64,000 nt of DNA from a virus, in IMG/VR virus record IMGVR_UViG_3300025646_000015, positions 37,269-101,268 of that record; one strand, written 5' to 3'. Each line of letters opens with the position of its first letter. Within the stretch, counting starts at the first letter, position 1. The notes below the pieces were generated by a model. It saw only the letters and a program-made list of their open reading frames with translations. It ran no database searches and was not told where the DNA came from. The translations under genes and the position numbers were made by a program. Shown here one piece after another: positions 10,292-28,894 of the stretch.

Positions 10292-10320
10292 AGTATATAT
10301 TATATGCATGCGATTATCAA
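10292..10320 (-). promoter_or_regulatory. Sigma70-type promoter for the cytosine methyltransferase
   Basis: Minus strand: TTGATA (10315-10320), 17-nt spacer, TATACT (10292-10297). The -35 overlaps the stop codon of the upstream glycosyltransferase gene. Confidence 0.6.
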
Positions 10321-11333
10321 GATTTAAATTTACGAATTAAATCACTAAGCTTATTGCAAATATCCCTAAATTCAGAAATTGATAAATTAATTTTATTTGC
10401 ATTTAAGATTTTGCAAATTATTTCATCATTTAATTTAGCATCGCAAAATAAACTTTTATTAATTGGAAAATTTAAATCAATCAATTCGGATTTATTAATG
10501 AAATTTTCTGAAGCTTCGTGTGTAAATAAAAGTTGCCAGGATGACCCTATGTTAGATTTTAAGAATCTACAACAATCCGATACTTTATCAAAATCTGATT
10601 TTAAGTTTTCAATTATTTGGTTGGGTGTAAAATTAGGTTTTTTGTCCGAAAACACTGTGGTAAAAGTTTTTATTAAATAATTTTCTATAGATCTGCAATG
10701 CAAGTGAAGAAGAGCAGATTCTGTATAAGAAGGTGTTGTTAGTGGAACATTGCAAAAATGAACAGAATTATATTCATCTAAGCTAATATTCTTATATTTA
10801 ATTCCATTAGACCAGACCGAAGAAGAGTCTTTGAAATAAAAAAAGTGAGAGCCTAAATTCCTAATACATATAGATCTCCTTATCATAGTTTTGATATGAT
10901 TAGATCTAAAAAAATTTAAGCCAGAATTTAAATCTAATTTTACATCCAAACAATCTGGATAATTTGATATATTATGAGCATTAATCCAATTAAAAAAGTA
11001 AACATCAGCTTGGTTTCGGTCTATAAAATCTTTAAGACTTGAATACTGTTTGTTTAAGAGCAAGAATTCATCACAGTCGATATTTAAAATAAAATCAGAA
11101 TCAGAGTTAAATTTTTTTAAAAACCGCTCGAAGAAATCTTGCAATGCCTGATCTCCATTATTTCCAGAAATTGCATCTATTATATTGACGCAACTATTTT
11201 TCTTAAATTGATTTAATTCACTATTGCAAATATTGATTATATATATTTCATCAACTCCTAAATTTAGGTAATGATCGATAAAATAATCAAGATACTGAGC
11301 TTCATGGAAGCATCTTGTCACCAAACGAATCAT
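10317..11333 (-). CDS. Glycosyltransferase (GT92 / GT2-like)
   Basis: This 338-residue protein begins LVTRCFHEAQYLDYFIDHYLNLGVDEIYII, the typical start of the GT92/Glyco_tranf_2_4 group. The metal-binding acidic motif is FILNIDCDEFLLL near residue 83, followed by VYFFNWINAHN. C-terminal HLHCRSIENYLIKTF near residue 200 also fits that group. It is part of an operon with an FkbM methyltransferase, a fucosyltransferase-like gene and a GT2 enzyme (10317-13787). The sugar transferred is unknown. Confidence 0.75.
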   Translation of the reverse strand: MIRLVTRCFHEAQYLDYFIDHYLNLGVDEIYIINICNSELNQFKKNSCVNIIDAISGNNGDQALQDFFERFLKKFNSDSDFILNIDCDEFLLLNKQYSSLKDFIDRNQADVYFFNWINAHNISNYPDCLDVKLDLNSGLNFFRSNHIKTMIRRSICIRNLGSHFFYFKDSSSVWSNGIKYKNISLDEYNSVHFCNVPLTTPSYTESALLHLHCRSIENYLIKTFTTVFSDKKPNFTPNQIIENLKSDFDKVSDCCRFLKSNIGSSWQLLFTHEASENFINKSELIDLNFPINKSLFCDAKLNDEIICKILNANKINLSISEFRDICNKLSDLIRKFKS

Positions 11334-11971
11334 AATTTAAAAGATTTATTTACATATATATTATGAAATCCAGATCGAATACGGCTAAACTTTAGATCAT
11401 TTAATAAAAATTCAAATTTATGATAATTACAAATTTTTTCATTATCTTTTTCAAAAAAAACTAATCTTAGCTTTGACAAAAAATCAATCGCTCTTTTTTG
11501 TCTACAAAAAAAGTTTAAGCACCCCTCGCAGTCAGCGAAAAGTACAGTAAAATCAGTATCAACCAAAGATCTAACATGTTGTAGTGAATAAGGTTTTATT
11601 GTTAAATCAGGATTACTGGAAGAACCAATCGAAGTATATCCACCCGTAAATCCAAGTGGATGATCGGGCTGAGGAACGTGTAATAATTGTGGCAAATCAT
11701 TAATAGAACCATGCACAATATTAAACTCAGATTTATGAATGTCTTTATTTTTTGTTAAATCTAAAAATGCAGAATTATTGGGTTCAACAACAACATGATT
11801 TTTAGGGATCAATAATTTTTTATTAATTTCAACTGCTGTTCGACCTATGCCACCCCCTAATTCAAGTACACAATCGTTTTGATGCACAAATTCTCTAGCA
11901 ATTAAAACTTCTGGAAACTCATACTTGTTGTGAGTAAAATCTTTTAATTTATTGTTTATATAAAAATTCAT
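11330..11971 (-). CDS. FkbM-like SAM-dependent methyltransferase
   Basis: This 213-residue protein has motif I VLELGGGIGRTAVEIN near residue 36, an acidic VVVEPN after the second strand, and FADCEGCLNFF near residue 150 in the position of the FkbM DxEGxE motif. It overlaps the downstream glycosyltransferase by four bases. It is likely an O-methyltransferase acting on the same glycan. There is a central glycine/serine-rich loop (GFTGGYTSIGSSS) not usual for the family. Confidence 0.6.
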   Translation of the reverse strand: MNFYINNKLKDFTHNKYEFPEVLIAREFVHQNDCVLELGGGIGRTAVEINKKLLIPKNHVVVEPNNSAFLDLTKNKDIHKSEFNIVHGSINDLPQLLHVPQPDHPLGFTGGYTSIGSSSNPDLTIKPYSLQHVRSLVDTDFTVLFADCEGCLNFFCRQKRAIDFLSKLRLVFFEKDNEKICNYHKFEFLLNDLKFSRIRSGFHNIYVNKSFKL

Positions 11972-11983
11972 GTATATAATATA

Positions 11984-12886
11984 TTATAACCTTAAACATT
12001 CTAAATTTTCAGGATCAAAAGAGAAATAATTAATAGAATCGGCATTTCCCAAAAACCCCGCCCATGTTGAGAATGCTGATTTTCTTTTGCCAAAAGGAAA
12101 ATGAGAGACCGATGTTATGTCGCGAGAATAAGATAAACAATAGAAGTCAGACAGTGTGTCGGTTAATGATTCCTCTTGATTTATTAAACCTGTATGACAT
12201 TTATTTTCATTAAATAAAATATGGGGAAATTTATTTTTAATAAAATTTAAAAAAAATATATTGTCGCAAGAAACAAAGTCAGCTTCCTTAATTTTGCCCT
12301 CGAAATAATTTAATAAAAAATCAAAAACATAATCATGTTTTAGCGAATTAGACCAATTTTCAAATGAAAAACTTGGGGGCATGTGATTACGGTAATAATT
12401 TAATAAAAAATTTGATGAAACTAAGGATTGATCTCCCAATCTAAAATGCAGTGCCTTATGGATTTTAGGTTTTTTATTAAAAAGAGTGTCTTGTATAGAA
12501 AAATTTTCAAGAAATATTTGTTTTAAAAAATTAATTAACGGTTCGGGTGGAGAAAAAGAATCTAATTCCGAGTCACCATTGCTCATAACAAAAACACTAT
12601 CATTTGAAGAATTTAATGTTAAGAATTTTTGGAGTTGATGATTATTTCCATCTATATAAGGAATGTGTTCTGGGAAATTGCCCTGATAAACAAGTTCTTC
12701 ATTTATATTTATAAATGGCTCTAGAGAATGTCCGCTGGCACAAATAAAAAAATTAATATCGTTATATTTGCATATCATATATGCTTGACTAATGCCACGG
12801 ATAATATCACCAAGACCAGAAAATGTAGGCTTGATTTGATTGTTGATAAGACAGTTGTGTCTAAGACAATAGATCAAATTATTCAT
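11984..12886 (-). CDS. Fucosyltransferase-like glycosyltransferase (GT-B type)
   Basis: This 300-residue protein has GLGDIIRGISQAY near residue 25, a loop seen at the N-terminus of GT-B fucosyl- and related transferases. ALHFRLGDQSLV near residue 150 is the H-x-R-x-G-D loop. SYSRDITSVSHFPFGKRKSAFSTWAG near residue 253 matches the C-terminal donor-site Ser-x-x-Ser-x-F-S region. It overlaps the GT2 gene by 8 nt. Together with Gmd/Fcl, a fucosyl donor is reasonable, but the specificity is inferred. Confidence 0.6.
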   Translation of the reverse strand: MNNLIYCLRHNCLINNQIKPTFSGLGDIIRGISQAYMICKYNDINFFICASGHSLEPFININEELVYQGNFPEHIPYIDGNNHQLQKFLTLNSSNDSVFVMSNGDSELDSFSPPEPLINFLKQIFLENFSIQDTLFNKKPKIHKALHFRLGDQSLVSSNFLLNYYRNHMPPSFSFENWSNSLKHDYVFDFLLNYFEGKIKEADFVSCDNIFFLNFIKNKFPHILFNENKCHTGLINQEESLTDTLSDFYCLSYSRDITSVSHFPFGKRKSAFSTWAGFLGNADSINYFSFDPENLECLRL

Positions 12887-13787
12887 CTAGCACCTTTCCT
12901 AGTAAAATTTTATGAGTTAATAACTGTATGTTTTGAATTAATCCATAAAAATCAGAACTATCTTTGTGAAAAATTTGAGAACAGACAGATTGTATTCTCT
13001 GAGTCTGATTCTCAGCTTCTAAAATCCAATTTTCATTGGTCATGATGTCTGAGACAGCCTGCCATGCAACCCTTTTTATCAACCAAGATTTTGTAACTTG
13101 ATGTTTTTTTAAATAATGTTTTACCGAAAAACACGGGTTGTAAAATATTTTACCACCAGAATCATAAATTTTATTTAATAAATCGTTCTCTTCTGAACTA
13201 AGTAGGCCGAGATTATCACCTTTTCTGCCCAAGGATAAATCAAAGCCGCCAAATTCTAATATTTTAGCCTTTTTGATCAATAGATTTGCTCCAACCAGCC
13301 ACCTAGCTTGAGTTTTGTAATCTAAAATAGCATTGCCAAAATCCAAGATAGATAACATTGGATAAAGCTCTTCAAAAAACCAATCTGGCTTCGAAACAAA
13401 AGACCAATCTGGCAAAGCCTTGCCCCCAATGGCATCTGGGTTATTCATATTTTTGATGGCTTCTTTGACCTTTATTGAGAAATCTCCATAAATAGAGACA
13501 TCATCATCCAGAAAATGAATATATTCGGTTTTGCAATAATCAACACATATATTTCTTGAATCAGATAATCCGTTGCATTCAGAATGAAGGTAGAAGAAAT
13601 TCGGAAAGTTGGAAATAATATTTTTCACGTCTTCTAAATAAATAAAATTATCATCCTGAATTAAATTAGCAGGAGTGTTGTCATGAACAAATACATTGAA
13701 ATCCAAATCTTTTTGCATGACCAAGTCTTGCATTATCCCTTTTAAATGAAAATAATTATTATATGTAGATATAGCAAAAGTTATCAT
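12879..13787 (-). CDS. GT2-family glycosyltransferase
   Basis: The start is set at ATG 13787 (MITFAISTYNN), because the longer frame from 13880 would begin inside the promoter at 13852-13880. The 302-residue protein has the GT-A opening TFAISTYNNYFHL, and the metal-binding IHFLDDDVSIYG near residue 92. WLVGANLLIKKAKI near residue 162 and FDLSLGRKGDNLGLLSSEEND near residue 182 are characteristic acceptor-side GT2 segments. The ATG directly follows a 23-nt tRNA 3'-end-like sequence (13788-13810). Confidence 0.85.
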   Translation of the reverse strand: MITFAISTYNNYFHLKGIMQDLVMQKDLDFNVFVHDNTPANLIQDDNFIYLEDVKNIISNFPNFFYLHSECNGLSDSRNICVDYCKTEYIHFLDDDVSIYGDFSIKVKEAIKNMNNPDAIGGKALPDWSFVSKPDWFFEELYPMLSILDFGNAILDYKTQARWLVGANLLIKKAKILEFGGFDLSLGRKGDNLGLLSSEENDLLNKIYDSGGKIFYNPCFSVKHYLKKHQVTKSWLIKRVAWQAVSDIMTNENWILEAENQTQRIQSVCSQIFHKDSSDFYGLIQNIQLLTHKILLGKVLDE

Positions 13788-13810
13788 TGGAGCAAGTGAG
13801 GGAATCGAAC
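13788..13810 (-). other. tRNA 3'-end-like fragment (T-loop, acceptor half, CCA)
   Basis: The minus strand reads TTCGATTC followed by CCTCACTTGCTCCA, the T-loop, 3' acceptor strand and CCA of a glycine-type tRNA. The upstream sequence cannot fold into the rest of a tRNA and the 5' T-stem half does not pair. It therefore looks like a remnant, an attachment-site core, or a recruited fragment. It abuts the ATG of the GT2 gene. Confidence 0.5.
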
Positions 13811-13851
13811 TAGTAGATGATTTTGTTTTAAAAAAAATTTTAGTTAACTGG

Positions 13852-13880
13852 AGTATATATAATATATATTTTTCACACAA
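13852..13880 (-). promoter_or_regulatory. Sigma70-type promoter for the GT2 operon
   Basis: Minus strand: TTGTGT (13875-13880), 17-nt spacer, TATACT (13852-13857). The roughly 60-nt leader would contain the tRNA-like fragment. Confidence 0.5.
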
Positions 13881-13985
13881 CTTCTAATTTTTGGCAGAAT
13901 TAATGCAACAATAATATTGAAGTGCTCAAAACGAGGCTTTGATGTAGACAAAATGTCGCATGCAACTAAAAAAAATATAAATACA

Positions 13986-14462
13986 ATGACAAAATTACAC
14001 ATAAGAAGCAATCTTCCTAGTGGAAACTTAATTACTAGAGAAGAATTTTTAACACCGTTTGATTCTATTTTCGATAGCATCATACAAAAAACAATACCTT
14101 CTTTTTCCGAAGAGTTTGGGATTAGTTTTTTTGGAAATAACAGCTACCCAAAAGTAGATGTAATCGATCACGAAGATAAAATAACGATTGAAGCAGAAAT
14201 CCCAGGGCTATCAAAAGAAGATGTATCTGTTGACTTAGAAGATAATATCTTGTCTATTACTGGATCAAAAAGAAGCCAGCAAGAAGATAGGGAAAAAAAA
14301 TACATCAGAAGAGAGCTTAAAAGATCAAGTTTTAAAAGATCATTTCAGCTTGGAGAAAATTTTAAAACAAAAAATATTAAAGCTGACTTTAAAGATGGTA
14401 TATTATTAGTAATAGTACCCAAAAAAGAGCCAGAAAAGCCTAAAAAAATAAAGATATTATAA
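13986..14462 (+). CDS. Small heat-shock protein, Hsp20 family
   Basis: From ATG 13986 the protein has 158 residues; in-frame ATGs at 13917 and 13953 are alternatives. The alpha-crystallin domain runs from about 55 to 148: YPKVDVIDHEDKITIEAEIPG, then LSKEDVSVDLEDNILSITG, YIRRELKRSSFKRSF and the C-terminal DGILLVIVPKKE. The terminal KIKIL contains an I-x-I/L-type motif that docks onto neighbouring subunits. Hsp20 is common in T4-like marine phages, where it is thought to help virion protein folding. It stands alone on the plus strand and ends in its own terminator. Confidence 0.93.
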   Translation: MTKLHIRSNLPSGNLITREEFLTPFDSIFDSIIQKTIPSFSEEFGISFFGNNSYPKVDVIDHEDKITIEAEIPGLSKEDVSVDLEDNILSITGSKRSQQEDREKKYIRRELKRSSFKRSFQLGENFKTKNIKADFKDGILLVIVPKKEPEKPKKIKIL

Positions 14463-15263
14463 TCAAGCCCCTTCGGGGGCTTTTTTGTGCAAAGATAGCT
14501 TGTTGTAAATTTTTGCAAATTGAATCCTGCGATCATAAGTTGTTAAAGTATGTTCATCACTTGAGTCATGACAGAATTTGTGAGACAAGTGAACCAGCTT
14601 GCTTTCAAAAACTAAAGAGGGTATATGTATATTATAAGGCTCTTTAGGCAAATTTGGTTCTCCTACATAAGTATTATTAAATTTATAAAATATTCTATCA
14701 TCCAGTCCTTTTTTAAAAATAGCCATAAGAAAATCTTGATCTGTAAAAAATTTCCTGAAGCCATGAACTGGATCTTTTATTAGAGAAACTCGGTGACAAT
14801 GTTTGATAATATCTTCTTTGTTTTCAAAAAGATAATCTATGTAGGAAAAGAAATTGACTGCATTTCCAGACATAAAGCAAGGGCAGGCTCTATGAAACCA
14901 TGTTAAAGATGATGGATTTGATGTAATGTCAGAAGGAGAAAGAGAAATATTAAAAATATCACAATCAGAAAAAAGAGAAAAATCCTTGCAAAAATATGCA
15001 AAAGCTAAATGCTCCAAGTGTGTTGCCATGTGATAGCTATGTTCTTCTACTTTTTGTCCAGAAGCATGAAAGTGGATGTATTTCACAAAATCACAGTACT
15101 TTTTATAAAGAGGCTTGTCTTGAATCATGGCTTTATTTAAGATAATTGGTTCAAACCCTAAATTGCTCCAATTTTTTTGCCAAAGCTTTAAAAAAGACGT
15201 AGCCTTTTCAATATAATTTATGTTTTTGAAGTTAGTGAATTGGTGATATGTATAAATTTTCAT
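14463..15263 (-). CDS. Glycosyltransferase, DXD type (GT32-like)
   Basis: This 266-residue protein begins MKIYTYHQFTN and has KLWQKNWSNLGFEPIILNKA near residue 27 and FSDCDIFNISLSP near residue 100 with the putative metal-binding DxD. It is a paralogue of 5142-5924. Its ATG lies 4 nt behind the encoded CCA of the tmRNA, so the two are probably cotranscribed and separated by tRNA-type 3' processing. Its last codons form part of the hsp20 terminator hairpin. Confidence 0.6.
   Translation of the reverse strand: MKIYTYHQFTNFKNINYIEKATSFLKLWQKNWSNLGFEPIILNKAMIQDKPLYKKYCDFVKYIHFHASGQKVEEHSYHMATHLEHLAFAYFCKDFSLFSDCDIFNISLSPSDITSNPSSLTWFHRACPCFMSGNAVNFFSYIDYLFENKEDIIKHCHRVSLIKDPVHGFRKFFTDQDFLMAIFKKGLDDRIFYKFNNTYVGEPNLPKEPYNIHIPSLVFESKLVHLSHKFCHDSSDEHTLTTYDRRIQFAKIYNKLSLHKKAPEGA
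14466..14486 (+). terminator. Rho-independent terminator behind hsp20
   Basis: Stem AGCCCC/GGGGCT closed by a cTTCGg tetraloop (14466-14481) and followed by a T run (14482-14486). The last codons of the convergent minus-strand glycosyltransferase lie within the stem. Confidence 0.9.
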
Positions 15264-15267
15264 AAAA

Positions 15268-15678
15268 TGGTGGAGGTGGCGGGAGTTGAACCCGCGTCCT
15301 GATCGCCTGCAACGATCACATCTACAAGTTTAGTTGATTTTTTTTATAGTTAAGATATCAACATCCAACTAGCCATTTCAATTATTTACAGTTTATGATA
15401 TGGATAAATTTTTATCTGTTTTGGCAGATTAGTGACCCCGCAATCTTAATATCTGCGTCAAAAGTTGCGAGGGGGCAGCTTTCAAGCTACCATCTCAAGC
15501 TCTTCAGCTTGCTCGAATTGTACGAGATTGTCGTACTCTTCACGAGCAGCTTCAAGAAGCTCTTCTATGCTATAATAACCTTCGGCATGTATAGCTTGTG
15601 TGTCTTGATATCGGAGCCTGACACATCTCCGACTTGCAGTGAAAGAATTCGAACGTCAGTCAAATCCAGAACACCCCC
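15268..15678 (-). ncRNA. ssrA: Transfer-messenger RNA (tmRNA), one-piece
   Basis: The 411-nt RNA has a 5' end GGGGGUG that pairs with 3' CACCUCC before ACCA. The third pair is G-U, the alanine identity element. The 3' end has the canonical T-arm GGGTTCAACTCCC and an encoded CCA. Four features fit tmRNA: PK1 (stems CGGAG/CTCCG and GTGTC/GACAC) ends 11 nt before the resume codon, the -4 A and -5 U are present, PK2 (CGCAA/TTGCG with GCAGAT/ATCTGC) follows the tag, and a later pseudoknot pairs TAGTT/AACTA and GTTGAT/ATCAAC. The tag frame is at 15482-15586. It rescues stalled ribosomes and tags the nascent chain. Phage-borne tmRNAs are known but uncommon. Confidence 0.95.
15482..15586 (-). other. 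tmRNA tag reading frame (34 residues)
   Basis: From the resume codon GCC the tag begins AEGYYSIEELLEAAREE and ends EELEMVA, with stop TGA. The -5 U and -4 A upstream of the resume codon match the E. coli rule. The tag is highly acidic and far longer than the usual 8-15 residues, yet ends in a small hydrophobic VA like a C-degron. Confidence 0.8.
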
Positions 15679-15718
15679 ATAAAATTTTAAAGAACTAAAT
15701 ATAGTTTACACTTTATTT

Positions 15719-15746
15719 ATAGTAACAAAAGATAAAATAAAGTCAA
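15719..15746 (-). promoter_or_regulatory. Sigma70-type promoter for tmRNA
   Basis: Minus strand: TTGACT (15741-15746), 16-nt spacer, TACTAT (15719-15724); an overlapping TATAAA gives a 19-nt spacer. It lies about 40 nt before the mature 5' end, leaving room for a leader removed by RNase P. Confidence 0.6.
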
Positions 15747-15761
15747 GTTTCCCATAGTGTT

Positions 15762-16349
15762 TCATAATTTCTCAGCTATAGTGTTTAAACGGTCTTTCTT
15801 TTTTACAGAATAACCATACTGTTTTAATTTTTCTACACAAGGTTTATATACTTCACCTTTTAGCTCGTTGATTCTTGGATATCCGTCGGCATGTAAATGC
15901 TCAAACTCAATATACTTAATATCAAATTTATCTAAATTAAAGTTTAATAAAATTTCACAATCGGAACCTTCAGCGTCAATATAAAGTCTATCACATTCTG
16001 TTATATTATTAAGTTTAAAAAATTCATCTAAAGTAAAACATTCAACTTCTATTTCAAAAATGCTTTCATGGTTATGTGCTGTTAAATGTTGCCTATTAAT
16101 TGAAGAGTGCTGGATTTTTGATATATTAGTAGGAACAAACATCTTAATAACTTTTTTATTCGCTACAGGGGATATAGCTATATTAAAAATTTTAAAGTTT
16201 TTTATGTTTTTATATGCCTCTTTAATGTGTGGGTTACACATGGATAAAGGTTCTATAAGGTAAACCTTTTCAATTTCATCTTTGTGATTTATAACATATT
16301 TGTGACAATCATCTAAAGAATTATTAGTGCCTACTTGTACTATTTTCAT
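15762..16349 (-). CDS. FkbM-family methyltransferase
   Basis: This 195-residue protein begins MKIVQVGTNNSLDDCHKYV. VYLIEPLSMCNPHIKEAYKN near residue 30 gives the acidic SAM-ribose contact, and LYIDAEGSDCEILLNFN near residue 118 is the FkbM motif D-x-E-G. YIEFEHLHADGY follows as the next core strand. It is compact but complete. It lies upstream of the tmRNA promoter and is separated from the sulfotransferase gene by a 145-nt gap with only weak palindromes. Confidence 0.8.
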   Translation of the reverse strand: MKIVQVGTNNSLDDCHKYVINHKDEIEKVYLIEPLSMCNPHIKEAYKNIKNFKIFNIAISPVANKKVIKMFVPTNISKIQHSSINRQHLTAHNHESIFEIEVECFTLDEFFKLNNITECDRLYIDAEGSDCEILLNFNLDKFDIKYIEFEHLHADGYPRINELKGEVYKPCVEKLKQYGYSVKKKDRLNTIAEKL

Positions 16350-16494
16350 ATTAATAATTTATTAAAATTGTTGATTAAAAATTTACTTTTTGTAAATTCA
16401 AGTCTATCTTAGGATTACACCGAATTCCATTTTTTTAACTATATCTATAGTTTATTAAAATTTTTTTATACTATAGATTATTCAATTTTCTAAA

Positions 16495-17109
16495 TTATTC
16501 TCCAAATTCATAACCAAAATACTCAATGTCTCGTGCATACTTTTCTGCGACAATCTCGCGAGTTTCATCATCGTAGTATTCGGTGTAGTGTTTGTGGTTG
16601 GTTTTGTTAACATGTGGTAGGCTCTGAAAAGGAAGTCCAAGCGAAAAGCTTATTTCATCAAAGCTTTTTTGAAGAGATTCGTATTTAAATATTAAATCAC
16701 ATCCTTTCGCAAAATCTATTACATTCATTGAAATAGGAGGCCACACGCTAAGATGTTTTTTTACAAATTCCCTAAAAGAGACAGACCCTACATTGAACCT
16801 TGAAGTTGAGTTGAAACCATAGCTCCATGCCGAGACCAAACGTGAATAAGGATTGCGAGAAAAACAGAATTTAAAGTAGTTACCGAGGTTTTTATATGTT
16901 TCTGGGAAAAGCTTGCCTAGCTCATGCATTGGTATATGATGGGGACAATAATTAATATTTGTTTTTGAGTGAATAAAATTTAAAAATTCTCCTTGACTAA
17001 GTCCATGATATAAATCTTTTTCTGTCAAACCAAGTCCAACAATTAATGAAGAACTGCCAGTTTTCGGGTAACGCAAAAATATATATTTATGTTTTTCAGA
17101 GATGATCAT
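16495..17109 (-). CDS. Carbohydrate sulfotransferase (Sulfotransfer_2-like)
   Basis: This 204-residue protein has the PAPS loop YIFLRYPKTGSSSLIVGL near residue 9 (K-T-G-S-S). FKFCFSRNPYSRLVSAW near residue 75 gives the 3'-phosphate contact R-x-P-x-R-x-x-S. CPHHIPMHEL near residue 55 is a typical acceptor-side stretch. It transfers sulfate from PAPS to a sugar. It sits 3 nt behind the Bpt/ATE-like gene. Two sulfotransferases in one phage suggest a sulfated glycan. Confidence 0.8.
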   Translation of the reverse strand: MIISEKHKYIFLRYPKTGSSSLIVGLGLTEKDLYHGLSQGEFLNFIHSKTNINYCPHHIPMHELGKLFPETYKNLGNYFKFCFSRNPYSRLVSAWSYGFNSTSRFNVGSVSFREFVKKHLSVWPPISMNVIDFAKGCDLIFKYESLQKSFDEISFSLGLPFQSLPHVNKTNHKHYTEYYDDETREIVAEKYARDIEYFGYEFGE

Positions 17110-17111
17110 GT

Positions 17112-17915
17112 TTAAAACCCAAGTAGTTTTTGAAATTTATTATAATCCACAAAATCTTCTAATGTATTGCTATTAGAATCGTTTTGTGCGATATTAATTA
17201 ATTGTCGTTTATTTGACATCCATTTCCTTCCTGTCCAAACTTGTACTCCTTTAATGTAAGATTTGTATTGAGAGGGTGTTTCGCTATACACTCCGATGTA
17301 TAAGTATTTGAAGTTAAAGCGTTTACAAAGCTCGACTTCTAAATGGTTGGATAAATTGCCGAGAGATAATTGTGGCTCAGAGTAGTCCCAAAAAAATAAA
17401 CCCGAAACTAAAGAGTGACCAACTTGAGTCATTGCGGTACAGGCAATTATTTCATCGTTTAGATAAAACAAAATGAAATGACTACTATCATCAACAACAT
17501 ATTTAAGAAAATTTTCTTTATCTAATATATCTTTGTAATTTTTGTGTGTTACATAGTTGTTATATATAGAATAAAGTTTATCTTTTATTTGATCTCTATC
17601 TGATTTTATATTTAAATCGCCAATAGTAATGTATTTGTAAGAAAAATTATTTAATTTTAATGCTTTTAAGTGCTTACTTTTTGCGCGGAACTTTTCGCAT
17701 TCGATTCTTGCGCTTCTTAATTGACACCAAATTTGTTTATTATTTGCTTCACTTTCGTTCACAAATTCGCAATCGTTGGTATAGAAATATGTGGGTAGCC
17801 AACCCGTAGCTAGGGCTTCATCCTCTTCGCCACTATCAACCCAAGCAGAAATAAGAGTATAATTAAAGTCTGTATCAGCTTGCTTAGAAATAACATGGTC
17901 ATAAAATATTTTCAT
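17112..17915 (-). CDS. Aminoacyl-tRNA-protein transferase-like protein (Bpt/ATE1 family, GNAT fold)
   Basis: In this 267-residue protein the C-terminal half matches the ATE_C pattern: GLFFWDYSEPQLSLGNLSNHLE near residue 170, FKYLYIGVYSETPSQYKSYIKG near 205, then a conserved Trp. The family signature is S-L-G-x-Y followed by YLYLGYW...M.YK..F. The N-terminal half has ALATGWLPTYFY and CQLRSARIECEKFRAKSKHLKALK, recalling the family's GWRRxG...R..R and basic tRNA-side helix. The paired zinc/Fe-S cysteines of ATE1 are mostly absent. Family members add Leu or Arg to protein N-termini, creating N-degrons for ClpS/ClpA-type proteolysis. The identification is by eye; another GNAT activity is possible. 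Confidence 0.6.
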   Translation of the reverse strand: MKIFYDHVISKQADTDFNYTLISAWVDSGEEDEALATGWLPTYFYTNDCEFVNESEANNKQIWCQLRSARIECEKFRAKSKHLKALKLNNFSYKYITIGDLNIKSDRDQIKDKLYSIYNNYVTHKNYKDILDKENFLKYVVDDSSHFILFYLNDEIIACTAMTQVGHSLVSGLFFWDYSEPQLSLGNLSNHLEVELCKRFNFKYLYIGVYSETPSQYKSYIKGVQVWTGRKWMSNKRQLINIAQNDSNSNTLEDFVDYNKFQKLLGF

Positions 17916-17931
17916 TCTACATTGATGTTTT

Positions 17932-18534
17932 TTATTTTTGGTTATTTAATAATGAACCAATTAAATCAAATGTTTTTTCATTCTTTGTAAGAACCCCAAG
18001 ACCATGAGAATGCTTAAAATTAAAATTATAAAATTCATCTTTGATCTCATCAAAAAATCTTCCTACATCCTTTGGAAATGAAATTGTGTCGTGAAATAAA
18101 ATTAAAGCATCTTCGTTACAATGATCAATCCAGTTTGTGAAATCTGATTTTACAGCATCGTATGTATGAAGTCCGTCAATGTGTAAAATATCTATTTTTT
18201 TATTCCAAGTTTTAGATAGTTCGGTGAAATCACTTTTTATAATTTCTACATTATCTATGTCATAGTGTGATTCCATGTCCGATTGTAAATTTTTAACAAT
18301 TTCATACGTGTTTCTATATTTTGCGTGTTCATCACCTTGAAACCAATCGACTCCATAAACTTTTCCAATTTTTGGTTGGGCAAAGCAAAAAGTGGAAAAT
18401 CCGTAGTCAACTCCAAGATCAACTACAATATCTGGTTTTAAAATTTCAACCAAATTCATTGCAAATTCTCCGTGACCCATCCATGCAGTTCCATGCACAC
18501 TTATTAATTTTTTAATGTATTTAACTCTGCTCAT
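17932..18534 (-). CDS. Class I SAM methyltransferase (Methyltransf_24-like)
   Basis: This 200-residue protein has motif I IVVDLGVDYGFSTFCF near residue 35, an acidic VYGVDWF after strand two, and DILHIDGLHTYDAVKSD near residue 112, the D-G-x-H metal-binding signature of the CmcI/macrocin O-methyltransferase group. LILFHDTISF follows. Such enzymes are Mg-dependent O-methyltransferases acting on sugars or small molecules. It lies in an operon between the ATE-like gene and a glycosyltransferase-like gene. Confidence 0.75.
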   Translation of the reverse strand: MSRVKYIKKLISVHGTAWMGHGEFAMNLVEILKPDIVVDLGVDYGFSTFCFAQPKIGKVYGVDWFQGDEHAKYRNTYEIVKNLQSDMESHYDIDNVEIIKSDFTELSKTWNKKIDILHIDGLHTYDAVKSDFTNWIDHCNEDALILFHDTISFPKDVGRFFDEIKDEFYNFNFKHSHGLGVLTKNEKTFDLIGSLLNNQK

Positions 18535-18564
18535 TATATTTTATATTTTAAATTGTATTGTTTA

Positions 18565-19242
18565 TCAATTGGAGAACAACCAAAACTCAGCACTGTAGAA
18601 TGGGGACTGCTTTAATTTACAATCTGAATATTTATTTAATTGTACATACTTAATAGGACAGGGCAGACTTTTTAGATGATCGGAAGTTGACCACCAAAAA
18701 TTACCGCTGTAATGGTTGCCACGAAAATCTATACCAGTATGGTTTTTGTTATTCAAATCTTTTTGGCACTTTCTCCAATTTGTTATTAAAGTGTTAGACA
18801 TTGCTAATCTCCAATCCTCTCGGCTGTTGTAATACATATGAGCGCCAGAATGCACAGAGCCTTTTCCGTGAAGATATAATATATTCGCAGGATTTTTTAA
18901 CGCATTAATTTGATCATGCATGAATTTAAGAGTGTCAGCCTCAAGCCCTGTTTTACCAATTAGAAGTCTGTGATTATTTTCAATCTCAATGGGAGTGAAT
19001 GAACTTATATACTCCCGCAATTCTTGATTAAGATATTGATGCAAATTTATTTTAGACAATTTACTTGCAAATGTTTGTTGAATATTATGCCTATGCTCTT
19101 GCATATTTGCCCCAATAATATTAATGTGTAATTTGTTTATATTTTCATACAAATCTGACTTTATAATTTCATCTAATGTTCTAGAAAGTATATCGAAAGA
19201 TTTATCTGTACAAAAGTAATGATAGTAAATTATTTTATTCAT
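18565..19242 (-). CDS. Glycosyltransferase-like protein
   Basis: This 225-residue protein has NILYLHGKGSVHSG near residue 120, then DWRLAMSNTLITNWRKC and HYSGNFWWSTSDHLKSLP near residue 182. The set H-G-K-G, W...L...W..C, and GNFWW belongs to a family of putative glycosyltransferases often found in polysaccharide loci and large viruses. No DxD motif is certain. It is translationally coupled to the next gene upstream (overlap of 4 nt). Confidence 0.5.
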   Translation of the reverse strand: MNKIIYYHYFCTDKSFDILSRTLDEIIKSDLYENINKLHINIIGANMQEHRHNIQQTFASKLSKINLHQYLNQELREYISSFTPIEIENNHRLLIGKTGLEADTLKFMHDQINALKNPANILYLHGKGSVHSGAHMYYNSREDWRLAMSNTLITNWRKCQKDLNNKNHTGIDFRGNHYSGNFWWSTSDHLKSLPCPIKYVQLNKYSDCKLKQSPFYSAEFWLFSN

Positions 19243-19778
19243 TCTACATTATATATTTCTGTATTGGGTTTAGGTATAAATTTTACACTATCATTTACTA
19301 TATGATCATCCCATATGATCTTATTTGTTGGTTGCGCGGCAAAATTGCCCTCGTTTAATTTGATAAAATGAAATGGTTTGTAAAACTTTGGGTCTTCTGC
19401 TCGATCTGAGCCATAAGGTTCTAAGGTAAACATATATTGACCATGATGAAATTCTTTATTTTCATCAAAAAACTTACAATTCATATATTTGAGATAGTCG
19501 TATTCAATAACACTGTTAGAATAGCTAAATGAATCATAAGTCATTAAGAATGATAAATCTCTTTGTGGAGCTTCCTTGAGCCAGCAAAAGGCATGTAAGG
19601 GTAACTTTGTATATACCGCGCCATTTTCAATCATAGCTACAAATGTCATAGCTTGATTTTTGATTGTATGGACGCCGAAAATTACACAATTTAAATGATC
19701 GGGTATATCTTCAGAATTAGAAACAAATTCTCTCCTCAAAAAGCATTTGATTGCTGGAGTGTTATTGCATAACTTCAC
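19239..19778 (-). CDS. Conserved hypothetical protein of phage type
   Basis: This 179-residue protein has the pattern GAVYTKLPLHAFCW near residue 53, then YDYLKY, HHGQYMFTLEPYGSD near residue 110 and FAAQPTNKIIWDDHIV near residue 147. I associate this order of motifs with a family shared by marine phages and bacteria, with no assigned function. There are no transmembrane segments. It overlaps both neighbours by 4 nt, so it belongs to the 17.9-20.5 kb operon. Confidence 0.55.
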   Translation of the reverse strand: MKLCNNTPAIKCFLRREFVSNSEDIPDHLNCVIFGVHTIKNQAMTFVAMIENGAVYTKLPLHAFCWLKEAPQRDLSFLMTYDSFSYSNSVIEYDYLKYMNCKFFDENKEFHHGQYMFTLEPYGSDRAEDPKFYKPFHFIKLNEGNFAAQPTNKIIWDDHIVNDSVKFIPKPNTEIYNVE

Positions 19779-20476
19779 ACATCTTTAGGTTTTTTTTTCT
19801 TTTGCGCTTTTTTATATGCTTCTGGATCTGGGCGATCTTTATCTCCAGGTTTTGCTGGACGATAGTTTTTACCTTCCCTTTTTTTCTTTTCTCTAATGTT
19901 ATGCCAAAGGCCTTTGCCTTCAGCCTCTGATTTCTCTTTAGGTTCTTCTTCTTTTTTGGAATCTTTATCTTCTGCTTTCTTGGGATCTTTGCCCTGTTTT
20001 TTTAAAATTTTCTTTTGCATTTCTGGGGGAAGTTTTTTTTGCTGCTCAGTTAATTCGGCATCAGATTCATCTAAATAATTTAAGAGATCTTCATAAGTTT
20101 CTTCGGAACCCTTTGTGACTTTAGTAACACTTTTCTTGCTCCACATTTTACATGACCAATAGCGGGCTTTTGTTTTTGGTCCTGGATTTTCACAATTATG
20201 TCTCGCGCGAAAAGATTTCCTGCGCTCAGGACTGTCTCTTTTGATTTCCATATTGGGGTCTCCAAAATTAACTTTAACGACATTACCCTTTTCGTTTTTC
20301 ACATAGACCGAAAACTTCTTTGGTCCGCCTGGTGTACGAAAAGGTTTGTTTAAAGTCTTGCCCTTTGTTTTTTCTTCGGCCCAAGCTTCTTCGCCAATTT
20401 CTTCTTCGTTCCCAACTTCGGCAGCAAACGCTTTCTTGATTTCTGAGGAAAAATCTATTTCATGTTTGTAATTCAT
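19775..20476 (-). CDS. Conserved basic/acidic phage protein, KE-rich C-terminus
   Basis: The start is taken at MNYKHEIDFSS (20476), giving 233 residues. The core has GKPF-type RTPGGPKKFSVYVKNEKG, then VNFGDPNMEIKRDSPERRKSF and CENPGPKTKARYWSCKMW. This arrangement is one I associate with T4-like marine phage proteins of unknown role. The C-terminal half is a highly charged Lys/Glu/Pro segment and ends in GLWHNIREKKKREGKNYRPAKPGD, another phage-typical unit. Its start codon shares the palindrome CATG with the divergent plus-strand gene. Confidence 0.6.
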   Translation of the reverse strand: MNYKHEIDFSSEIKKAFAAEVGNEEEIGEEAWAEEKTKGKTLNKPFRTPGGPKKFSVYVKNEKGNVVKVNFGDPNMEIKRDSPERRKSFRARHNCENPGPKTKARYWSCKMWSKKSVTKVTKGSEETYEDLLNYLDESDAELTEQQKKLPPEMQKKILKKQGKDPKKAEDKDSKKEEEPKEKSEAEGKGLWHNIREKKKREGKNYRPAKPGDKDRPDPEAYKKAQKKKKPKDV

Positions 20477-20483
20477 GTGTAAT
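20477..20483 (+). promoter_or_regulatory. GTGTAAT start-proximal element
   Basis: GTGTAAT ending 9 nt before ATG 20493. Confidence 0.45.
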
Positions 20484-20492
20484 ATATATTGG

Positions 20493-20798
20493 ATGGTAAT
20501 AATTGATTCAAGATTAACTGCTCCACCTAGTGAAGTGTGTCTCTTTAGAGAAATTACACTATTCACGCGAGCTTTTCTGCAAGAAAATATAGTTTTAGAA
20601 TGCAGAAGGGAAGAAAGAGATTTTTACTATAAATGGTTGAAAAATAAAGCGGCATGGGATTATGTTGAGGATTTTATACAACCAAAATCTGAAAACGGGA
20701 GAATTTCTATAAGAACTAAAGATGGAGATATAACCATAGATAGAATTAACTATCAAAATATAAATTTTATATTGCAAAGATTAGGCATATGGACATAG
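20493..20798 (+). CDS. Hypothetical small protein
   Basis: This 101-residue protein begins at ATG 20493 (the frame is open from an ATG at 20475, which overlaps the GTGTAAT element). The body is ECRREERDFYYKWLKNKAAWDYVEDFI, then a basic/polar stretch ending LQRLGIW. There are no membrane segments and no recognised family. It forms a two-gene plus-strand unit with the following membrane gene, which overlaps it by 10 nt. Confidence 0.5.
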   Translation: MVIIDSRLTAPPSEVCLFREITLFTRAFLQENIVLECRREERDFYYKWLKNKAAWDYVEDFIQPKSENGRISIRTKDGDITIDRINYQNINFILQRLGIWT

Positions 20799-25848: not shown

Positions 25849-26442
25849 TTATGAATTGGCTAGTTTTTCTTCGACTTTAAGCAAGATATCTAAAACTTCA
25901 TGCTCGTAACGAGTGTGTGTCCTCATTTTTTCAGCATCATCTGAAATATTGGACATTTCTTGAACAAATCTAGCATAAATTTCTTCATATCCATTAAAGA
26001 AGCAAACTTCTCCAGAGAAAAATTTTCTAACTTCTTCATTAGCTTCTTTGGGGGCTACTCCAGCAGTCGGCCTAAGTTTGTGGGTAACAATATAAGATGT
26101 CGCATCTTCTTGTTCTTTAAATGTATTTTCATTTAGAAGACGTTCTTCTTTTGATGGCATTAATGTGATACTGATAACTTGATTGTCTCGTTCGCAAACC
26201 AAGAATTTATAACCTTTAGTGACTTCCAACTTCTTTTTTGTTAAAAAAGATTTTAATTCTTTAACATCGCTACAATAATTCCATTCCCTTTCTTCATAAT
26301 TTTCTCCACAAGGATGGAATTCAACTAACCTGTCCCCAAGATGGGTAACTACAAAATTAGAATTCTGAGGCGAGTCTAGATCATTTACATGAATATCTGC
26401 TTCAGCTGCGTTTTCTTTGTCGATTTTATTTTTATTTTTCAT
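25849..26442 (-). CDS. Hypothetical protein
   Basis: This 197-residue, mainly charged protein is not recognised. The N-terminus is acidic, and the middle has FVVTHLGDRLVEFHPCGENYEEREW and YKFLVCERDNQVISITLMP. The C-terminus is helical (ISDDAEKMRTHTRYEHEVLDILLKVEEKL). It overlaps the clpC start by 11 nt and follows the SSB-like gene, so a replication-linked or ClpC-linked role such as an adaptor is possible but unproven. Confidence 0.5.
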   Translation of the reverse strand: MKNKNKIDKENAAEADIHVNDLDSPQNSNFVVTHLGDRLVEFHPCGENYEEREWNYCSDVKELKSFLTKKKLEVTKGYKFLVCERDNQVISITLMPSKEERLLNENTFKEQEDATSYIVTHKLRPTAGVAPKEANEEVRKFFSGEVCFFNGYEEIYARFVQEMSNISDDAEKMRTHTRYEHEVLDILLKVEEKLANS

Positions 26443-28894
26443 TTTTTTTGATTTGATCTAATGTTATTTTGATATTGGAAGAAGAATCTTTTATAATCAT
26501 TTTAGATATTATTTTTTCAATATTTTTTTGAATAATATTTTGAATTGGTCTAGCCCCCAAGTTTGCATCAAAAGCTTTTTGAGAAAGAAAGTCAATACAT
26601 TCCGAATCCAAGGTAACTTCAATTTTATACATTTTTTTGATTTTTCTAATCAACTTTGATATATTTTTCTTTGTGAGAAATTTAATTTGCTCTAAAGAAA
26701 ATGTATTGAATAGCAATATATCATCGATTCTATTAATCAACTCGGGTTTAAGTGTTAATTCAACTTCCTTCATGACGCTGTCTGATACAGAATGTTCTTG
26801 TTTCATGAAACCTACTGCTTGTTTTTGATGATAATGTTTAGCTCCGATATTGCCTGTCATTATAACAATGCAATTTTTAAAATTAGCATTTTTCCCAGAC
26901 TCATCTGTAAGCCTTCCTTCTTCTAGAATTTGTAAGAGAATATTCAAGACATCAGGATGAGCTTTTTCAATTTCGTCAAATAGTAAAACCGAATGAGGTT
27001 TGCTTTTGATTTTATCAGTTAAAGATCCTGATTCATTATATCCTATGTAGCCTGGCGCCGAACCTATTAATCTAGATATGTTAATCTTTTCTGAGTATTC
27101 TGACATGTCTAAATGAATTAAATGATTAGATCCACCAAAGTAAGTTTCTGCCAAATGTTTTGCTAAGAAAGTTTTACCTACTCCTGTAGGGCCCAAAAAA
27201 AGAAAAGATCCTAGCGGTTTATTGGAATTTGTTATTCCAAGTTTAGACCTTAGAATACATGAAGAAACAACTTCGCACGCATGATCTTGAAATAAAACTC
27301 CTTTTGATAAATCATTTTCGAGATTTAATAAGAAGCCCTGTTCGTCTTTGTTGATTTTTCCTATTGGAATCTTACAAGAACTAGAAACAACTTCAGCTAT
27401 TTCTTTTTTTGTTATAAAATTAATTTTAGATTTAATTCTATTTTTCCAATTTTTAAATTTCCTTTCGTGGATTTTTATTAATTTATTCTGTTGATTTCTG
27501 AACTCTTTTTTTAGTGCAGGATGTTGATCTTCCTGCGACATAAGAAACTCTAATTTTTCTTCAATTTCCAAAATTTCTTTTGGTTTAGATGAATTTCTTA
27601 TTTTGGCCCTAGCTCCAGCTTGATCAATTATGTCAACCGCTTTATCTGGCAACTGTCTGTCATTTATATACTGAACAGATAAGTCGATAGCAAATTGAAT
27701 AGCGTTTTTTCTATATTTAACATTGTGAAATTTTTCATAATAACCAATGCTTTGATTGATAATTTCGAAGCTTTGGTTTGCAGTAGGCTCATCAATTAAA
27801 ACTTTTTCAAAACGACGTTCTAGTGCAGAATCTTTTTCAAAAGATTTTTTATACTCACTGGGGGTTGTGGCCCCAATGCATCTAATCTTATTTCTAGCTA
27901 ATGCTGGCTTCAAAATATTTGCAGCATCTAAAGATCCTTCTGAAGCCCCCGCTCCAATTATGGTATGAATTTCATCAATAAATAAAATTATATTAGGATC
28001 TTTTTCGACATAATTAATTAAAGACTTCAATCTTTCTTCAAATTGACCCCTAAATTTAGTTCCTGCAATTAATGCAGTAAGGTCTACTTCTAGGATTTTT
28101 TTTGAACTAAGAAACTCTGTGCATTGATTGGCGGCAATAAGCTGAGCCAATCCTTCTATAATTGTTGTTTTTCCTGTGCCAGGAAGGCCTATTAATATAG
28201 GATTATTTTTGTTTCTTCTACATAATATTTCAGAAATTTGAGAAATTTCAAAATCCTTTCCTATCACTTTGTCGAACAAGGAATCTCTTGCCATTTTTAT
28301 ATAATCCTTCGTGAATGAAGTTATAGAATTTTGAGATAAAGGCGGTCGAGGATCATCAATGGATTCTTGGTCAGCTTGATTTTCATTAATTTGTCTATAG
28401 GGTCTTACTTTAGGAAGAGTCATCTCATTTGTATTTGAGAAATTTAACAGTGCCGCCTCCAGAAAACCTTTTATATTTAGATTAAAATCTTTTAAAAAAT
28501 TTGAAATGATCGTATCTTTCGTATTTAAGAAAATAAAAAAAAGATGCTCGACACCTATGTAATCATGAGAGAATTTCTCAGAAAGATCTTTGGCTTTTCT
28601 AAAAATTTCCAGATAATCTTCGCAAAAAGATAATTTTAATTGAGGAGTTTTTTGATTAAAATAAATCTTATCCTGAAGTTTTAAAGAATTAATCTCTCCA
28701 CTCATGTATGATTTAAAATCTTCTATAGGGACATTTATATATGTAAAAAAATTCTCTATAAAAAAATGAGAGGATTCTACAAAGCCTATTAATAAGGAGT
28801 CTAAACAAATGGAATTGAACCCAAGCTGTTGAGAAACTTTCTTCGAGAAAGAAATTAAGTGCTGCGCCCTTGGCGTTAAATTAAATTTATTCAT
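26432..28894 (-). CDS. clpC: ClpC-type AAA+ unfoldase (Hsp100)
   Basis: This 820-residue protein has an N-terminal Clp_N domain (1-150). AAA1 has Walker A GLPGTGKTT near 240, Walker B LFIDEIHT near 303 and pore loop GTKFRGQFEERL. A short coiled-coil middle domain (KIHERKFKNWKNRI) is ClpC-sized, not ClpB-sized. AAA2 has GPTGVGKTFL near 568, LLFDEIEKAHP, pore GYIGYN and sensor NRIDDILLF. Near residue 693, QAVGFMKQE matches the V-G-F loop that docks ClpP; B. subtilis ClpC also has VGF. ClpB lacks it. No ClpP is in the window, so it may recruit the host protease. The gene overlaps dnaE (ATGA). Confidence 0.9.
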   Translation of the reverse strand: MNKFNLTPRAQHLISFSKKVSQQLGFNSICLDSLLIGFVESSHFFIENFFTYINVPIEDFKSYMSGEINSLKLQDKIYFNQKTPQLKLSFCEDYLEIFRKAKDLSEKFSHDYIGVEHLFFIFLNTKDTIISNFLKDFNLNIKGFLEAALLNFSNTNEMTLPKVRPYRQINENQADQESIDDPRPPLSQNSITSFTKDYIKMARDSLFDKVIGKDFEISQISEILCRRNKNNPILIGLPGTGKTTIIEGLAQLIAANQCTEFLSSKKILEVDLTALIAGTKFRGQFEERLKSLINYVEKDPNIILFIDEIHTIIGAGASEGSLDAANILKPALARNKIRCIGATTPSEYKKSFEKDSALERRFEKVLIDEPTANQSFEIINQSIGYYEKFHNVKYRKNAIQFAIDLSVQYINDRQLPDKAVDIIDQAGARAKIRNSSKPKEILEIEEKLEFLMSQEDQHPALKKEFRNQQNKLIKIHERKFKNWKNRIKSKINFITKKEIAEVVSSSCKIPIGKINKDEQGFLLNLENDLSKGVLFQDHACEVVSSCILRSKLGITNSNKPLGSFLFLGPTGVGKTFLAKHLAETYFGGSNHLIHLDMSEYSEKINISRLIGSAPGYIGYNESGSLTDKIKSKPHSVLLFDEIEKAHPDVLNILLQILEEGRLTDESGKNANFKNCIVIMTGNIGAKHYHQKQAVGFMKQEHSVSDSVMKEVELTLKPELINRIDDILLFNTFSLEQIKFLTKKNISKLIRKIKKMYKIEVTLDSECIDFLSQKAFDANLGARPIQNIIQKNIEKIISKMIIKDSSSNIKITLDQIKKNEK

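Follow-up and report, generated by a model that had tools for sequence, protein, structure and literature searches.

The locus described here raises two questions: whether a tmRNA gene (ssrA) found in viral DNA encodes a functional molecule with a long acidic tag, and what a tag of this kind would do to the proteins receiving it. The window (the whole stretch of DNA that was analyzed, 64,000 nucleotides) comprises positions 37269-101268 of a linear viral contig of 101,268 bases. The contig encodes rIIA/rIIB, a DnaE-type polymerase, DnaB, a UvsX-like recombinase, a sigma factor and ribonucleotide reductase; on the strength of these families it very probably belongs to a tailed phage, in agreement with the term "phage-borne" applied to the tmRNA in a first-pass annotation. 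Phage tmRNAs are already known (PMC4131195, PMC9004378, PMC7162821), and ssrA is likewise phage-encoded in mycobacteriophages Bxz1, Cali and Wildcat, in Bacillus phage G, and in Melnitz and related marine phages, although the tmRNAs of the Melnitz type are two-piece molecules (PMC9004378) whereas the one described here is one-piece. The features discussed in the following paragraphs are collected in Table 1.

Table 1. Features of the phage tmRNA and its surroundings, in window coordinates.
Feature	Position	Strand	Basis
One-piece tmRNA (ssrA), 411 nt	15268..15678	minus	RF00023, 124.3 bits, full length; ARAGORN ends identical; 12 helices supported in 31 relatives
Acceptor stem, 5' strand GGGGGUG, G3-U included	15672..15678	minus	100% paired in 31 relatives; pair 4 compensatory G-C/C-G
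Acceptor stem, 3' strand CACCUCC, followed by ACCA	15272..15278	minus	Sequence and structure alignment
T-arm GCGGG-UUCAACU-CCCGC	15279..15295	minus	Covariation at all 5 pairs, 100% paired
Pseudoknot PK1	15599..15632	minus	Compensatory changes in both stems
Pseudoknot PK2	15424..15472	minus	Compensatory changes among 31 relatives
Pseudoknot PK3	15373..15408	minus	Stem 2 covaries from CCAU:AUGG to CUUGU:ACAAG
Pseudoknot PK4	15333..15371	minus	Stem 2 GUUGAU:AUCAAC, 4 pairs covarying
Helix 5, hairpin around the end of the tag frame	15474..15491	minus	75.6% of cells paired; compensatory changes in 3/7 pairs
Tag stop codon UGA, within the helix 5 loop	15482..15484	minus	Structure alignment and frame
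Tag reading frame, 34 codons, resume codon GCC at 15584-15586	15485..15586	minus	Conserved from codon 2; pN/pS 0.27; predicted helix 7-33
A at -4 of the resume codon, equivalent to E. coli A86	15590..15590	minus	Invariant, with the preceding U, in 31 relatives
Candidate sigma-70-like promoter 5' of the tmRNA, TTGACT-16-TACTAT, extended -10	15719..15746	minus	Consensus scan only
HSP20 small heat-shock protein	13917-14462	plus	Close to the tmRNA
ClpC-like double-ring AAA+ unfoldase, candidate tag partner	26432..28894	minus	PDB ClpC, 586 bits; PHROG 4871; GF loop in 27 homologues

The tmRNA itself was placed correctly at first pass, in coordinates as well as in strand. When the covariance-model check was run, RF00023 matched 15268-15678 (-) with 124.3 bits (E 3.8e-48, model positions 1-374), far over its gathering score of 47; it was the sole RNA family reaching its gathering score in an Rfam search of the window, and ARAGORN and Rfam agree on both ends of the gene. 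The structure tested comprised the acceptor stem, the T-arm, part of helix 2, helix 5 and four pseudoknots in 31 distinct tmRNAs of the clade, among which 94.3% of the structure cells pair and 30 of the 69 pairs show compensatory changes. Structure covariation was 0.272, vs. 0.127 in shuffled controls (0/500) and 0.04-0.062 for slid versions of the structure. The acceptor G-U is invariant (31/31 sequences) and the window tmRNA encodes its CCA, so that the acceptor stem with G3-U, the T-arm and the encoded CCA reported at first pass are all present; the "three clear pseudoknots" of the same annotation are borne out as pseudoknots by compensatory changes among the 31 relatives, but they number four (PK1-PK4). 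In helix 5, the outer pairs are well kept among relatives and the two loop-closing pairs mostly not. The Ala-type acceptor with G3-U, the T-arm and the four pseudoknots are shared with the bacterial one-piece tmRNA (RF00023; E. coli ssrA), as are the A at -4 of the resume codon and the location of the tag stop within the helix 5 loop (PMC1168896). At the junction between PK3 and PK4, several relatives (L091, L184, L036, L140 and others) carry an extra insert 3' of the PK3 stem; these inserts are of two kinds, one hairpin-like (CCCCTGCGTAGCGGGG) and the other of the CCACTGAGTATTCGGGGGC type, and the window tmRNA has neither. Upstream of the gene, TTGACA and GTGTAnnAT occupy the position of the candidate tmRNA promoter in several relatives.

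Relatives were collected through two pattern scans of IMG/VR, based on the 3' part and on the 5' part of the tmRNA, and about 40 phage contigs were found to carry this tmRNA family; among 50,697 phage records, no nucleotide-level match to these tmRNAs was found. It is common for phages to acquire ssrA or to integrate into it, and the gene might on this basis be a passenger, i.e., a copy of a host ssrA without any role of its own. Such a route has been discussed (PMC9004378). For the present family it is hardly credible, given that the roughly 40 contigs carrying it are diverged (their ClpCs are ~40% identical) and have kept the structure and a tag under selection, and that a pattern scan of 84,980 species genomes yielded only two further matches, both on phage-like MAG contigs; in one of these bins, a large contig carries a tmRNA whose tag, 11 residues long, is unrelated. 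The bin PBIO01 (Halobacteriovorax label), to which L184 belongs, contains three different full-length tmRNAs, namely one of the phage type and two with the tags ANNDFAPAMAA and ANNNDNFEYALAA; the bin is therefore probably chimeric and constitutes weak host evidence, and the bins of both tmRNA-bearing MAG contigs cannot be trusted for host assignment.

The length of the tag depends on the codon at which translation resumes. Reading from the GCC at nt 93 of the tmRNA gives the 34-residue AEGYYSIEELLEAAREEYDNLVQFEQAEELEMVA, and the Rfam alignment also starts there; ARAGORN proposes instead an internal GCT (nt 132), which shares frame and stop with the 34-codon reading and would yield the 21-residue AREEYDNLVQFEQAEELEMVA, leaving the preceding 39 nt as a spacer. 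This 21-residue tag or a homologue of it is called by the same program in the window and in five relatives (L125, L126, L127, L152, and L156), but it would move the resume codon from 12 to 51 nt past PK1. Against it also stand U88-A89 and G93 (window tmRNA numbering), which are invariant in 31/31 aligned clade tmRNAs, such that UA-N3-G is found at GCC/GGC in the same place even in relatives with short tags. The 4 nt from A89 to G93 equal the spacing in E. coli, where A86, 4 bases 5' of the resume G90, is the main frame determinant (PMC2481249). Furthermore, codons 2-13, part of the supposed spacer, are conserved as protein (pN/pS ~0.2 with L055), and ARAGORN detects 25 of 36 clade tmRNAs while giving the comparative tag in 8 of them. 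Owing to the invariant UA-N3-G, to the purifying selection over codons 1-34 and to the inconsistency of ARAGORN within the clade, the 21-residue tag was rejected and is considered very improbable; a shorter tag from another resume codon, the outcome that the first-pass annotation had itself named as a refutation, failed the comparative tests, and the 34-residue reading stands. ARAGORN is the tool behind several phage tmRNA surveys; since it missed the gene or gave another tag in 28/36 clade tmRNAs, long tmRNA tags have probably been under-counted in such surveys. Nearly all clade tmRNAs resume at GGC (Gly), that of the window at GCC (Ala) and that of L166 at GCT; resumption on Gly sets most of the phage clade apart from the usual bacterial tmRNA, and is known elsewhere, as in Bacillus anthracis (PMC1168896).

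The 34-residue tag contains 11 acidic residues (10 E, 1 D), has a net charge of -10 and ends in MVA, which corresponds to the "about a third acidic" of the earlier description. Both its length and its strong acidity differ from the bacterial pattern, in which the commonest tag length is 10 (PMC11915505); lengths of 8-35 residues have been reported (reviewed in PMC8012679), a range including the window tag and exceeded by the 40-residue acidic tags of L055 and of the MAG contig L185. Altogether, nine of the approximately 40 contigs carry a long acidic tag, with either 34 or 40 residues and a net charge between -9 and -11, those with 34 residues being, besides the window, L036, L125, L126, L127, L152, and L156. 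Eight aligned acidic tags agree from codon 2 on (e.g., GEGYDSIEELLEAAREEYDNLVQFEQAEELEMVA and GEGYNSIEELLEAAREEYAVSQLIEDATALYEAEELPMAA). The pN/pS ratio is 0.27 over codons 1-34 of the seven 34-codon tags and 0.20 over codons 2-13 once L055 is added; when only the 34-codon set is used, codons 1-13 give 0.48, with few changes. This substitution pattern indicates that the tag codons are under purifying selection at the protein level. A DNA pattern back-translated from the start of the tag, which does not depend on the RNA backbone, was also compared with a viral collection of 2.9 million contigs and matched exactly seven, every one a tmRNA of this family. The GCC to UGA frame of 34 codons proposed at first pass is thus upheld by the invariant A at -4, the agreement among tags from codon 2 onward and purifying selection, and, to the extent that sequence can tell, the 34-residue tag is genuine. 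AlphaFold predicts a single helix over residues 7-33 (mean pLDDT 87; isolated peptide, 8 sequences). We estimate at about four in five the probability that the locus encodes a functional phage one-piece tmRNA with a 34-residue tag.

On the same RNA backbone, the other tags of the clade are 19-31 residues long and mostly basic. Those of 31 residues (L128, L158, and L184) have a net charge of +10, those of 19-21 residues range from -1 to +7 and end in LAA, MAA or similar, and every tag of the clade terminates in a small hydrophobic VA or AA. The 31-residue tags (L128 8295-8695, L158 5897-6294, L184 6321-6739) contain an internal repeat, GFKNR ... GFKxR, and look like partly duplicated versions of a 20-residue tag. 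Between tag classes, the flanking RNA is ~75-85% identical and the tag ~45-65%; in the acidic pair L152 and L156, nucleotide identity is 93% for the tag and 76-79% for the flanks. When mapped on a tree of 27 phage ClpCs, the distribution of the acidic tag needs three changes, or two when well-supported branches alone are counted, and the basic-tag phage G018 is nested among acidic-tag phages. From the lower likeness of the tags than of their flanks between classes, together with this scatter on the ClpC tree, we infer that the conserved RNA has had its tag cassettes exchanged or quickly replaced; these viruses seem to swap the label put on unfinished proteins. Outside the family, a viral contig with another tmRNA backbone (L050, 5302-5681) has an ARAGORN-called tag of 26 residues, ADVELSTMTFGDAMAWMESFDYAVAA.

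From what is understood of trans-translation, the phage tmRNA would be charged with Ala during infection, bind host SmpB and enter ribosomes stalled on cut or non-stop mRNA; translation would then resume at GCC, appending A plus AEGYYSIEELLEAAREEYDNLVQFEQAEELEMVA, with release at UGA. The C-terminal ...LEMVA, resembling the LAA/LVA type, would direct the tagged chain to a ClpP-dependent unfoldase, and, less certainly, ClpX or a Clp unfoldase might engage the VA end for proteolysis. An extra docking or initiation segment could be provided by the acidic stretch, which is long and helix-prone. Broadly, a role of the tag in degradation is fairly likely, and it is plausible that its long acidic part alters the choice of protease or adaptor. 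A mycobacteriophage DS6A molecule consisting of little beyond a tRNA-like domain has been proposed as a decoy, and a DS6A-like molecule strongly inhibits tmRNA (PMC4131195). The phage tmRNA might similarly compete with the host tmRNA for SmpB and ribosomes as its main activity, with a stable or unimportant tag, in keeping with the failure to find a phage SmpB in the 32 contigs searched; nonetheless, a decoy built on the tRNA-like domain needs neither an open, intact tag frame, here under purifying selection, nor the pseudoknots, here all kept, and this alternative appears quite improbable. It has also to be considered that the acidic tag might act as a protective or sorting label, maintaining the solubility of rescued chains or withholding them from host ClpX/SspB instead of accelerating their degradation: acidic tags of 34-40 and basic tags of 20-31 residues share one backbone, and the MVA end is unlike the LAA end of the basic group. 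Yet all tags retain a small hydrophobic VA or AA end, the feature that ClpX reads in ssrA tags, and many of the contigs also encode a phage ClpC that has a ClpP loop; a label of this type is rather unlikely.

The degradation reading directs attention to the unfoldase encoded in the window (26432-28894), whose closest PDB sequences are the ClpCs of S. aureus and B. subtilis (586 bits). It has a Clp_N domain, two AAA+ modules, Walker A/B motifs and pore loops, and shares with Firmicutes ClpC (S. aureus 6em8, B. subtilis 3j3r) Clp_N, the two AAA+ rings, a middle segment of ClpC size and the VGF loop; it differs in being phage-encoded, ~40% identical among phages, usually on the tmRNA strand and often near the tmRNA. 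The GF loop docks ClpP in known ClpC and ClpX; it reads VGF in the window protein and [VILMF]GF in 27/27 homologues, and the Walker and pore motifs are kept in the 27 phage ClpCs. A ClpC homologue was found in 25 of the 35 tmRNA contigs searched; 23 of the 25 share the strand of the tmRNA and two lie on the opposite one. Downstream of clpC, the tmRNA follows after 177-230 nt in G022 and G018, after 104 nt in the MAG contig G036 and after 1.4 kb in four more contigs; the distance in the window is 10.8 kb. This closeness is suggestive of a link between ClpC and tag but may be plain synteny. The interval holds a single shared ORF of ~440 residues, without any sign of an adaptor, in three contigs of the 1.4-kb group, and no gene in three other contigs examined for an adaptor.

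Several features of the surroundings are also worth recording. In the window, a minus-strand cassette (10317-20566) including an FkbM-type methyltransferase (15762-16349) flanks the tmRNA on both sides and lies partly between it and clpC; several of its genes resemble glycosyl-, sulfo- and methyltransferases, as judged by eye, and the clpC-tmRNA interval of G022, G018, and G036 is devoid of this cassette. The ATG noticed 4 nt after the CCA is indeed the putative start of an ORF (14463-15263, minus strand), which has no Pfam match and whose ribosome-binding site would have to sit in the 3' end of the tmRNA. HSP20 was considered as a linked chaperone and discarded, being present in only 8/31 related contigs and not reliably near the tmRNA.

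Phage Clp components are already known (PMC7824862), and huge or jumbo phages likewise carry trans-translation and Clp parts, such as ClpP, ClpS, ClpA, ClpX and tmRNA/SmpB (PMC7824862, PMC7162821). The phages described here differ from them in combining a ClpC-like unfoldase with a tmRNA of unusual tag; SmpB and ClpP were not found in 32 contigs of up to 206 kb, most of them fragments, nor ClpS in 23 contigs, and host SmpB and ClpP would therefore be needed. Under a more specific hypothesis, the phage ClpC-like unfoldase together with host ClpP would be tuned to the phage tag, giving a protease route under phage control. In a test for simple charge complementarity between ClpC and tag, the correlation of ClpC N-domain charge with tag charge was not significant (rho -0.39, p 0.07, uncorrected for six tests or relatedness), and the fact that the acidic label does not form one clade on the ClpC tree speaks against strict co-evolution with ClpC. 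That the phage ClpC reads the phage tag is a tentative proposal. Equally speculative is the full scheme of a private route from trans-translation to proteolysis, in which a phage ClpC borrowing host ClpP would read tag cassettes that can be exchanged (34-40 residues for the acidic, 19-31 for the mostly basic ones), so that rescued chains would go to a protease chosen by the phage and not to host ClpX/SspB.

The length and make-up of tmRNA tags are usually treated as nearly fixed; in this family the net charge varies between -11 and +10 and the length between 19 and 40 residues. One backbone bearing such varied tags constitutes a natural series for what a AAA+ protease needs in a tag. If the phage ClpC does read the tag, the system would represent a viral takeover of the degradation route linked to ribosome rescue.
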